NCBI RefSeq assembly: GCF_000721175.1
Contig: NZ_JOEZ01000009.1
Coordinates: 107,886 to 171,885 of the forward strand
Length of the DNA stretch: 64,000 nucleotides
Reading direction: 5' to 3'
DNA from: Streptomyces anulatus
Lineage (GTDB): Bacteria; Actinomycetota; Actinomycetes; Streptomycetales; Streptomycetaceae
Of the stretch, positions 17,469 to 23,236 are shown one piece after another. The notes under the pieces were generated by a model. It worked only from the letters and a program-made list of their open reading frames with translations. It was not told where the DNA came from and made no database searches. Made by a program: the position numbers and the translations under genes. Every line of letters starts with the position of its first letter. Position 1 is the first letter of the stretch.

Positions 17469-17760
17469 GTGACCAGGGAGTTCGGACGCGCGCTGCGCCA
17501 GGGGTTCCCGACCAACGCGCTCAACCCGAAGGCCCCGGTCCTCTTCCTCAGCCTGCTGCGCAGTTCGTGCCCCACGGGCAGCCGCCGCTGCCCTCGTGGT
17601 GGTGCCGGCGCTGATCCGGTTCCCGGCGGTGGCCCCGCTCGTGGACCGGCTGGGCCGGTGGCTGCGCCGTCCGCGTATCGCCCGCGCCATCGAGGACGGC
17701 AGCGGTGCGGCGCTCACCGGTCCGGGACTCGCGCTGGTCACCGGCCCGCTGTCGCGCTGA
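17469..17760 (+). pseudogene. LysE/RhtB-family exporter remnant, frameshifted
   Basis: The first part (REFGRALRQGFPTNALNPKAPVLFLSLL) matches the LysE-family TNxLNPKAxLFFLxLLP motif. A different phase then carries the family C-terminus, from about 17584 (ALVVVPALIRFPAVAPLVDRLGRW, split here) to LALVTGPLSR with stop at 17758-17760. The N-terminal transmembrane segments are missing and at least one frameshift or deletion separates the two parts, so no intact exporter can be made. Confidence 0.75.
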
Positions 17761-17871
17761 GGACGCAGTCCGCGCCCCTGGAGGCACAAGCAGGCCCCAC
17801 GGCACGGGCAGCCCGGGCGGCCCCGAAGAGGGCCGGGACCGCCCGCACGGAAAGAGCGTCCGGTCGCCGGG

Positions 17872-18342
17872 TCAGCGGACCCGTCCGTACCAGACGCTCT
17901 TGGACCAGATTTTCGCCAGTCGCACCACGTCCCCCGATTTGGGGGAGTGCCAGATCTTCCCGGCCCCGGCGTAGATGCCCACGTGGTAGACGCTGCGCCC
18001 CGAATGGAAGAAGACGAGGTCGCCGCGTTTGCGCTGTGACTTCGAGATATGGCGGGTCTTGTTGTACTGCTGCTGTGCCGTGCGGGGGAGTCTCTTCCCG
18101 GCCTTCTTGAACGAGTACAGCGTCAGCCCCGAGCAGTCGAAGCGACTGGGGCCGGTCGCTCCGTACTTGTAGGGAGCCCCCTTCTTCGACGCGGCCACCT
18201 TGAGGGCCTTCGTCGAGTGGGTGGCGGCCTCGGCGTCGCTCACCAGGCCGGGCGCCAGCATCGTCGACGTCACGGCCAGGGTGAGTACCGAGGCCGTACC
18301 GACCCGGGCGAACAGAGACGGGACATGAACCTGCGCAGACAT
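17872..18342 (-). CDS. Secreted NlpC/P60 cell-wall hydrolase
   Basis: 156 aa. A signal peptide covers about residues 1-45 (RVGTASVLTLAVTSTMLAPGLVSDAEAA, cleavage after AEA). A compact NlpC/P60 domain follows: catalytic Cys in FDCSGLTLY, His in VYHVGIYAG and a third polar residue in KIWHSPKSG. It probably cleaves D-glutamyl-diaminopimelate bonds in peptidoglycan. ATG 18342 has gaaggg 6 bases upstream. The frame open to 18804 is the riboswitch leader. A c-di-AMP riboswitch directly precedes the gene. Confidence 0.93.
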   Translation of the reverse strand: MSAQVHVPSLFARVGTASVLTLAVTSTMLAPGLVSDAEAATHSTKALKVAASKKGAPYKYGATGPSRFDCSGLTLYSFKKAGKRLPRTAQQQYNKTRHISKSQRKRGDLVFFHSGRSVYHVGIYAGAGKIWHSPKSGDVVRLAKIWSKSVWYGRVR

Positions 18343-18348
18343 GCGCAA

Positions 18349-18545
18349 CCCTTCGTCAGCCGCCTGTGAAGGATGACCTGTCGGGTTCGGGCTGGCGAAG
18401 TTGCCCGGCCGCGTCGCGGCTTCACCCCGAGGGCTTCCCGGTCTCCCGGTCGGCCCGTTGTGCTCGGGTCCTCCACTCCTGCCGATCCACTTCTGTCGAC
18501 CAGTCATCCGGGAGGCGGCAGGACTCGGCGTCCACCCGGACCGCC
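18349..18545 (-). ncRNA. ydaO-type cyclic-di-AMP riboswitch
   Basis: Reading the minus strand from about 18540, the conserved blocks appear in order: GCCGAGTCCTGCCGC (around 18529-18515), GGAGGACCCGAGCA, CTCGGGGTGAAGCCGC, and CCAGCCCGAACCCGACAG followed by CAGGCGGCTGACGAAGG (ending about 18350). These are the hallmark segments of RF00379. In actinobacteria this class sits before cell-wall hydrolase genes and lowers expression when c-di-AMP is high. The P1 3' strand (18359-18364) is only 4 bases from the ribosome binding site cccttc complement (18349-18354). No terminator hairpin follows, so control of translation start is likely. Confidence 0.9.
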
Positions 18546-18883
18546 CCGCCGCGGCGGCGGGGGCTTGTCGTCTCAGGGATCTTGACTCACTCGATGCCGG
18601 ATTTCCGAGCTGAAACAGTGGTTTGTGAGTCTCCTCACCACTGATCCGTTCGGGTGGACAGGTCCCCTTCGTGCTCGCCCGCGAGCCGGGGGCACACCCT
18701 CGTACCAGCGACGAAAGGGCACATTTCGAGTAGGGACCGCGCGCCGAGCGCAAGTTGAGCCGTCGCTCGCGCGGGTGATCGCCTACGCCGAACGAGCGAG
18801 GCAAATCGATCGCGGGACCGGGCGTGTCGCACGCGGGATCGGCCGGCCCGCTCCCGTAAGGCGCTCCCCGCGCGCGGGGCCGG
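18546..18883. other. Intergenic region upstream of the riboswitch
   Basis: About 340 bases without a gene. A very GC-rich stem (cccccgccgccgcggcgggg on the minus strand, about 18542-18560) lies just before the aptamer. The region must hold the promoter of the riboswitch transcript; a TTGACT reads on the plus strand near 18583. The left-over part near 18862-18884 is GC-rich and may terminate the neighbouring small gene. No coding seen. Confidence 0.5.
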
Positions 18884-21210: not shown

Positions 21211-21522
21211 ATGACTCCCGGAGAGATCCTTCACGGAGACGGGGACATCCCCCTCAACGAGGGGCGGGCGGTCACCCGCCTCACCGTCCTCAACGCCGCC
21301 GACCGCCCCGTCCAGGTCGGCTCCCACTACCACTTCGCCGAGGCCAACCCCGGACTGCGCTTCGACCGCGCCGCCGCCCACGGCCTGCGGCTGAACATCG
21401 CGGCCGGCACGGCGGTCCGCTTCGAACCCGGCATCCCCGCCGACGTCGAACTCGTCCCCCTCACCGGCCGCCGCGTCGTCCCCGGCCTGCGCGGCGAAAC
21501 CGGAGGTGCCCTCGATGCCTGA
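21211..21522 (+). CDS. ureB: Urease subunit beta
   Basis: 103 aa. Motifs are [35 protein letters not shown] and [14 protein letters not shown] 21211 has gggggag upstream, 13 bases after the ureA stop. It overlaps the ureC start region by 8 bases. Confidence 0.97.
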
Positions 21523-23236
21523 CCTCAAGCGAGCCGTGTACGCCGATCTGTTCGGCCCCACCACCGGCGACCGGCTTCGGCTCGCCGACACCGATCTGCT
21601 CGTCGAGATCGAGGAGGACCGCTCGGGCGGCCCCGGAAACGCGGGCGACGAGGCGGTGTTCGGCGGCGGCAAGGTGATCCGGGAGTCGATGGGCCAGGCC
21701 CGGACCACCCGGGCCGAGGGCGCACCCGACACCGTCATCACCGGGGCCGTCGTCATCGACCACTGGGGCATCGTCAAGGCCGACATCGGCATCCGGGACG
21801 GCCGGATCACCGGCATCGGGAAGGCCGGGAACCCGGACACCATGGACGGCGTCCACCCCGGCCTGGTGATCGGCCCCGAGACCGAGATCATCGCGGGCAA
21901 CGGGAAGCTGCTCACGGCCGGTGCGGTCGACGCCCACGTCCACTTCATCTCACCGACCCTCGTCGACCAGGCGCTCTCCAGCGGCATCACCACCCTCGTC
22001 GGCGGCGGTACCGGACCCGCCGAAGGCACCAAGGCCACCACCATCACCCCCGGACCCTGGCACCTCGCCCGGATGTTCGAGGCGCTGGAGACCTTCCCGG
22101 TCAACATCGGGCTGCTCGGCAAGGGCAACACGATGTCGCAGGAGGCGATGCACTCCCAACTTCGCGGCGGCGCACTGGGATTCAAGATCCACGAGGACTG
22201 GGGCGCCACCCCAGCCGTCATCGACGCCTGCCTCACCGTCTGCGAGCGGACCGGCGCCCAGCTCGCCATCCACACGGACACCCTCAACGAGGCCGGGTTC
22301 GTCGCCGACACCCTCGCCGCCATCGCCGGCCGGACGATCCACGCGTACCACACCGAGGGGGCGGGCGGCGGGCACGCACCCGACATCATCAGTGTGGTCT
22401 CCGAGCCGTACGTCCTGCCCAGCTCGACCAACCCCACCCGGCCGCACACCGTCAACACCATCGAGGAGCACCTCGACATGCTGATGGTCTGCCACCACCT
22501 CAACCCCGCGGTCCCCGAGGACCTGGCATTCGCCGAATCCCGGATCCGTCCCTCCACCATCGCGGCCGAGGACATCCTGCACGACCTCGGCGCCATCTCG
22601 ATCATCTCCTCGGACTCCCAGGCCATGGGCCGCATCGGCGAGGTGATCCTGCGGACCTGGCAGACCGCCCACGTGATGAAGAAGCGGCGCGGCGCCCTGC
22701 CCGGGGACGGCAGGGCCGACAACCACCGGGTCCGTCGTTATGTCGCCAAATACACCATCAACCCGGCGGTGGCGCAGGGCCTGGACCGGGAGATCGGATC
22801 CGTGGAGACCGGCAAGCTCGCCGACCTCGTCCTCTGGGACCCGGCGTTCTTCGGCGTCAAGCCGCAGACCGTCATCAAGGGCGGCCAGATCGCGTACGCG
22901 CAGATGGGTGACGCCAACGCCTCCATCCCGACGCCCCAGCCGGTCCTGCCCCGGCCGATGTTCGGCGCCCTGGGACGGGCGGCCGCCCACAGCTCGTTCA
23001 ACTTCGTCTCCGCTGCGGCGATCGAGGACGGGCTGCCCGAACGGCTCGCCCTGGACAAGCGGTTCGTGCCGATCACCAGCACGCGGGGGGTCACCAAGGC
23101 GGACATGCGGGAGAACGACGCGCTGCCACAGGTCCACGTCGACCCCGACAGCTTCGCCGTCACCATCGACGGCGATCCGGTCGAGCCCGCACCGGCGGCG
23201 GAACTGCCCATGGCCCAGCGCTACTTCCTCTTCTGA
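21515..23236 (+). CDS. ureC: Urease subunit alpha
   Basis: 573 aa. All nickel-centre residues are visible: HVHF, the carbamylated Lys in [10 protein letters not shown], His in IHTDTLNE and HTEGAGGGH, and Asp in SSDSQAMGR. The flap Cys-His pair is in [12 protein letters not shown] 21515 is preferred over GTG 21506 because ggagg (21501-21506) gives correct spacing to 21515. It is the catalytic subunit and looks fully active. Confidence 0.97.

Follow-up and report, generated by a model that had tools for sequence, protein, structure and literature searches.

A linker-variant ydaO-type RNA upstream of a Streptomyces NlpC/P60 gene appears to hold the Shine–Dalgarno sequence in its own loop–tail pseudoknot

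It is unsettled whether the c-di-AMP riboswitches of actinobacteria control transcription or translation, with S. coelicolor rpfA on one side and C. glutamicum nlpC on the other. A ydaO-type RNA directly upstream of an NlpC/P60 gene in Streptomyces anulatus raises this question again. It lies on the minus strand of the window, which is the whole 64,000-nucleotide stretch of DNA analysed here (Table 1). The initial annotation proposed a direct translational switch and set it apart as a distinct design, on the grounds that most actinobacterial members are discussed as transcription terminators. The published systems bear this out for rpfA (PMC10117811, in the passages used here), whereas nlpC and the proposals for Streptomyces are translational. 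The relevant passages of PMC8079986, citing Haiser 2009 and Block 2010, state that the S. coelicolor riboswitch seems to block the ribosome-binding site (RBS) at translation initiation, and list six copies in S. lividans. For C. glutamicum nlpC, passages of PMC9960051 describe reporter-supported OFF control that is most likely translational, find no canonical terminator and propose a pseudoknot between CTCC and the GGAG of the RBS. Excerpts of PMC10117811 give seven copies for S. coelicolor and six for S. venezuelae, the latter expected, according to part of PMC11481543, to be OFF elements before wall hydrolases.

Table 1. Features of the locus, in window coordinates
Feature	Position	Strand	Remarks
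ydaO-type RNA	18540-18349	-	conserved ydaO blocks, upstream of NlpC/P60 gene
G+C hairpin directly 5' of aptamer	18562-18544	-	99.2% of cells paired in 51 orthologues; no double-sided changes
PK2 5' strand	18540-18532	-	pairs P2 loop 18515-18507; one U-U in window
P1 5' strand CGCC	18530-18527	-	pairs 18364-18361; 100% of cells in 51 and 35 relatives
P2 hairpin, long loop	18523-18516 / 18484-18477 (stem)	-	3 pairs with double-sided change; 97.9% of cells paired
PK2 3' strand in P2 loop	18515-18507	-	4 of 9 pairs with double-sided change
P3 5' strand GUGGAGG	18476-18470	-	2 pairs with double-sided change; 98.8% paired
P4	18427-18425 / 18385-18383	-	encloses P5 and P6
P5	18420-18416 / 18412-18408	-	within P4
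P6	18406-18403 / 18392-18389	-	within P4
PK1 5' strand, loop CUUCG	18400-18396	-	all cells paired in the 35 relatives
Variant linker GUCAU after CAG	18377-18373	-	CU[ACG]A in other copies, with two bases fewer before P3
P3 3' strand CCUUCAC	18372-18366	-	pairs P3 5' strand
P1 3' strand GGCG	18364-18361	-	pairs P1 5' strand; extra pairs to about 18357 possible by eye
PK1 3' strand CGAAG	18355-18351	-	overlaps 5' half of SD
Possible alternative hairpin AUCCUUC:GAAGGGU	18374-18368 : 18354-18348	-	exclusive with P3 and PK1
Shine–Dalgarno sequence (SD) GAAGGG	18354-18349	-	spacer 6 nt, start ATG 18342
NlpC/P60 hydrolase gene, 156 aa	17872-18342	-	PF00877, E 1.7e-27; N terminus signal-peptide-like by eye
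Crp-like site GTGAGGAGACTCAC	18638-18625	-	upstream of variant leader

The element belongs to the ydaO family by several lines of evidence. In a search of 601 bases, Rfam model RF00379 matched 18508-18346 on the minus strand (37.4 bits, E 3.8e-7). This falls 0.6 bit short of the gathering cut-off of 38, and a scan of the whole window at that cut-off therefore passed the element over. A score below the cut-off is what the initial annotation had named as refuting its claim; this copy falls under it by that small margin, but orthologues in two other genomes score above it (G072, 39.6 bits; G013, 38.5 bits). Because P2 is long in this copy, the Rfam alignment misplaces the 5' part of the element, and the P1 5' strand was placed from the orthologue alignment instead, which puts it within the coordinates of the initial annotation. 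We also found that R1, a model of the variant group described below, recovered four of the six canonical copies in the source genome (98.2, 90.5, 67.0 and 35.2 bits; E 5e-15 to 0.0037) and did not list the other two; these matches support common descent of the variant and canonical groups. The conserved blocks GCCGA, GGGGTGAA, GAACCCG and GACAG are largely kept in the variant alignment. A chance match was considered and is made very unlikely by orthologue conservation together with covariation. The claim of a ydaO-type RNA on the minus strand thus holds. By descent it would be a c-di-AMP riboswitch; since GUCAU replaces the class linker CUNA, we file it as a divergent homologue with c-di-AMP as its presumptive ligand.

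The surroundings agree with the initial annotation in two respects: the downstream gene encodes an NlpC/P60 protein (PF00877 in the reading frame 17872-18342), and a consensus scan of 17700-18800 found no terminator-like site (0, against a mean of 0.6 in shuffles), hence none between aptamer and gene. The source genome contains a DAC (c-di-AMP synthase) domain (E 7.5e-25) and six further RF00379 copies above the cut-off, at 63 to 93.7 bits. Of 150 genomes from the genus, 130 have a match to the NlpC protein at E ≤1e-30, and 65 of 70 examined leaders of NlpC orthologues, with protein identities down to 63%, carried the element. CGAAGGG was kept in all 65, and in the closer orthologues the leader is nearly invariant from P3 through the SD to the ATG. 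A wider set of 148 leaders was assembled from a protein search (30) and from the matches listed for a DNA pattern (118), from which L193 and L285 were dropped as their records end before the SD. Among the matches listed, the SD–ATG spacing was 6 nt in 134 of 146 variant leaders, and an NlpC homologue lay downstream in 144 of 146, the other two running off the stretch.

Consistent with a structured RNA, the helices P1–P6 (names of our own) follow Rfam's order and are well conserved. Alignment A1 held 51 of the 65 orthologue leaders, the window included (eight without the 5' anchor, as well as L040, L043, L050, L053, L078 and L086, were left out), and 98.1% of its cells pair. A2 held 37 of 39 sequences (L322 and L323 omitted for long inserts), and A3 held 35 of these 37; its covariation does not cover the two out-of-family copies, L294 and L295, which were omitted. 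In A3, a more diverse set that includes other genera of the family, 97.9% of cells pair. With PK1 and PK2 included, double-sided changes were seen there in 15 pairs, where shuffles gave 8.7, and in 76 cells, where shuffles gave 20.5; none of 500 shuffles reached these values, though relatedness of the aligned sequences inflates such comparisons. Slid controls reached at most 6 pairs and 15 cells with double-sided change. Further pair types in A3 did not rise above shuffles (35 versus 33.9; 176 of 500 as high). A hairpin at the start codon, UGCGCA-UGUC-UGCGCA, was tried and rejected, as 88.2% of its cells pair with no double-sided change and coding constraint explains it equally well.

Covariation also supports a pairing, PK2, between the 5' flank of P1 and the P2 loop, at positions where the RF00379 model has no pairs. 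In the 35 relatives, 93% of PK2 cells are paired, with one position unpaired in 9 of 35; example pairings are UCCGUGCGG:CCGCACGGA in L069 and CCCGACCGG:CCGGUCGGG in L304. Re-pairing was also tried for PK2 (0 of 5,000 for other copies, 52 of 5,000 for variants), but with crude anchors, many of them visibly wrong in the other copies, and we therefore take the case for PK2 from the covariation in the 35 relatives. When the leader was folded without pseudoknots, the SD had an unpaired probability of 0.57 in the unconstrained fold and of 0.62 once the aptamer was imposed. The comparison of folds with and without an aptamer constraint, which the initial annotation had suggested, thus showed almost no change, so nested folding was rejected as evidence for an SD switch, a role that would fall to PK1. 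When pseudoknots are left out, the aptamer is 10.9 kcal/mol less favourable than the free ensemble, a cost that the predicted energies of the isolated duplexes, −13.5 kcal/mol for PK2 and −3.7 kcal/mol for PK1, could offset.

PK1 joins the CUUCG loop to the tail and places the SD in the fold itself. All five positions pair in 35 of 35 variant relatives and two of them show double-sided changes; among the closest orthologues of the window PK1 hardly varies. In the crystallised ydaO sequence, as given in part of PMC5393176, we read the loop CUCCUUCG and the tail CGAAGGAG as the pseudoknot strands, an assignment of our own. Loop–tail runs of at least 5 were observed in 44 of 45, 43 of 50 and 17 of 19 cases, compared with 63–65% of shuffles; since a pyrimidine-rich loop and a purine-rich SD will pair through base composition anyway, significance from letter shuffling alone was rejected as too weak and replaced by re-pairing tests. 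For canonical copies (genus, order and class; 23 distinct types) the loop–tail fit, summed over types, exceeded all 20,000 re-pairings, with the own tail best or tied for only 13 of the 23. The phylum sample, which includes three same-genus loci (L152, L170 and L172), gave a weaker result (126 of 20,000 as good, 15 types; 133 with distinct tails). Inside the variant group the test was uninformative (13,916 of 20,000 as good), the group being too uniform. L151, L157, L158, L160 and L173 had no P1 match and were dropped from the loop–tail set, which is also without L091, L094, L100, L103, L106, L132, L148 and L167 (no block pattern).

At least 3 nt of the SD fell within the fitted loop–tail strand in all 43 variant types, in 35 of the 50 canonical ones and in 12 of the 19 from the phylum sample, although the automatic choice of the best helix was not always PK1 and picked another register for the window. 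A search of the draft assembly of the source genome for the 16S end pattern found no match, so SD positions were assigned with an assumed anti-SD sequence. Two points tell against blocking by PK1: the 3' GG of the SD stays free of it, and its 5 bp contribute only −3.7 kcal/mol as an isolated duplex. P1 and the SD are separated by 6–7 nt in the 43 variant types, by a median of 5 nt (range 2–8) in 50 distinct canonical types from genus, order and class, and by a median of 5 (range 0–19) in the 19 types of the phylum sample. Such adjacency is common in these copies and therefore not a special design, so steric abutment of P1 and SD was rejected as one. The aptamer does lie next to the SD, as had been claimed, but the relation is not mere abutment: the SD appears to be contained in the riboswitch's own pseudoknot. 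The notion of a distinct design is not supported, given the similar spacing in canonical relatives and the earlier proposals of translational control. Neither the place of the SD in the pseudoknot nor the changed linker described below figures in the initial annotation.

The variant differs from its class between CAG and P3. In 99 of 99 other copies (97 distinct) CAG is followed by CU[ACG]A, a count from which L132, L148 and L167, also with the canonical linker, stand apart; the class linker CUNA is absent from the window copy. All 184 variant copies listed (174 distinct) have G and then variable bases after CAG, with the stretch up to P3 lengthened by two bases and P3 itself by a seventh pair. 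These 184 comprise 118 listed matches to a DNA pattern that contains the linker, the 65 protein orthologues and the window locus again, so that the window copy is counted twice (L007 and L037). The G-N4 linker, two bases longer, was present in 65 of 65 element-bearing orthologue leaders (65 distinct, window included), which were found by protein and with a block pattern that needs CAG and not the bases that follow; the remaining 5 of 70 lacked the block. A looser pattern, which still requires CAGG and so detects variants only, matched 52 of the 150 family genomes sampled, from 10 of 17 genera, and a reversed control pattern gave no match in the family sample among the matches listed. Across the class, 16 of 197 genomes gave a match: 14 belong to the genus and two to another family, where both copies also precede an NlpC/P60-like reading frame (recognised by eye); R1 found one more variant in a third family (L329). 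In a record titled Streptosporangium nondiastaticum (L226) we observed a near-identical variant element that otherwise occurs mostly in Streptomyces records; this genome is possibly mislabelled.

As a linker-variant group within the ydaO class, these RNAs look new; we found no description of the linker variant in the literature searched, which did not reach the primary ydaO papers. With seven copies reported in S. coelicolor and six in S. venezuelae, orthologues of the element may already be among those published. That the variant forms a functional subclass, in which the changed linker alters ligand, affinity or polarity (a competing SD hairpin with the opposite sense, or another nucleotide), seems unlikely to us; any such subclass would coexist with six canonical copies in one genome.

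We lean, with a little more confidence than doubt, towards a c-di-AMP riboswitch that turns off translation of the NlpC/P60 gene through PK1 over the SD. Binding of c-di-AMP would stabilise P1, P3 and PK1, and the bound fold would consist of P1–P6 and the loop–tail pseudoknot. Since PK1 would then occupy the 5' half of the SD (CGAAG of CGAAGGG), 30S binding would be blocked at high c-di-AMP and translation would stop; at low c-di-AMP, PK1 and P1 would loosen and free the SD. We infer the ligand, its stabilisation of PK1, the OFF direction and the level of control from the comparative evidence. The change of the class linker means that c-di-AMP binding by this copy is not assured. Action on translation, as initially annotated, is probable from the position of the SD within PK1 and the lack of a terminator. 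As translational control has already been proposed in PMC8079986 and PMC9960051, in the passages used here, the mechanism is an extension with comparative support and not a new idea.

An unlikely alternative is attenuation as for rpfA, in which c-di-AMP would halt RNA polymerase within the leader with no canonical terminator involved. The precedent is rpfA of S. coelicolor, the most thoroughly studied Streptomyces copy, which excerpts of PMC10117811 describe as ending transcription early upon c-di-AMP binding and which is likewise said to be without a canonical terminator in part of PMC9960051. However, the same part of PMC9960051 reports that C. glutamicum nlpC acts without a c-di-AMP-dependent change in transcript level, 17700-18800 holds no terminator-like site, and termination would not need the SD overlap that is present in every variant type. 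Rather less likely is a variant with another ligand or with lost binding, kept for a structural or ligand-free role. The longer G-N4 linker and the seventh P3 pair would fit such a change, all the more as CU[ACG]A occurs in 97 of 97 distinct other copies; against it, the conserved blocks are largely kept, R1 joins the variant and canonical groups, and the kind of gene matches published actinobacterial copies.

Reversed polarity, in which the linker and the P3 3' strand would pair with the whole SD in the unliganded RNA and ligand would free it (an ON switch), we regard as slightly more improbable still. It draws on the complementarity between linker/P3 and SD in variants, with a mean score of 16.1 against 10.0 when shuffled (57 types), on the canonical value not being above shuffles (8.5 versus 9.2; 62 types) and on the 10 perfect pairs of relatives L315 and L316. 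Yet the constraints on P3 and the SD alone could give this complementarity, and covariation of the hairpin was not significant, with 1,230 of 20,000 re-pairings as good (22 types). Folding of the window's leader gave the hairpin a probability of 0.12, a second frame gave 0.25, and values across ten leaders ran from 0.00 to 1.0; the out-of-family copies L294 and L295 have only 5 pairs, and single canonical copies such as L005 reach 6. The translational OFF switch remains the reading we prefer.

Upstream of the variant leader, GTGAGGAGACTCAC resembles the Crp motif of Streptomyces. The pattern GTG-N6-[CG]NCAC, fitted after inspecting sites, occurred upstream in 131 of 144 variant loci among the matches listed, loci that are related to each other, against 10 of 144 after one shuffle each. 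Control of rpfA by cAMP plus c-di-AMP is reported in part of PMC9960051. Elsewhere in the window, a Clp protease-like gene (PF00574; 19229-19834, minus strand) lies upstream of the hydrolase gene, and the 105-aa reading frame between the two has no Pfam match at E 0.001. An Rfam match to 5_ureB_sRNA (68.6 bits; 21966-21675, minus strand) runs antisense to the reading frame 21506-23236 (plus strand), which is urease-like by eye; it is likely a by-product of conserved urease coding sequence, with no evidence for an sRNA.

For the dispute between transcription and translation, these results give the translational side a simple, testable answer, as the SD coincides in part with the 3' side of the aptamer pseudoknot in most copies examined. 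For the role of the CUNA linker, the variant group provides a natural experiment, and one conserved across much of a genus whose published copies precede wall hydrolases. Compared with ydaO/yuaA RNAs of RF00379, the element shares the order of P1–P6, the conserved blocks, the loop–tail pseudoknot and a cell-wall hydrolase gene, and differs in the longer G-N4 linker, the seventh P3 pair and a score just short of the cut-off. With S. coelicolor rpfA it shares the riboswitch class and the lack of a canonical terminator, whereas rpfA is reported, in the excerpts used, to act by early termination of transcription. C. glutamicum nlpC, unlike the Streptomyces element known from its sequence, has been tested experimentally; as far as the passages of PMC9960051 go, the two have in common the gene family, the lack of a canonical terminator and, as proposed for both, an RBS paired with a pyrimidine stretch of the riboswitch.
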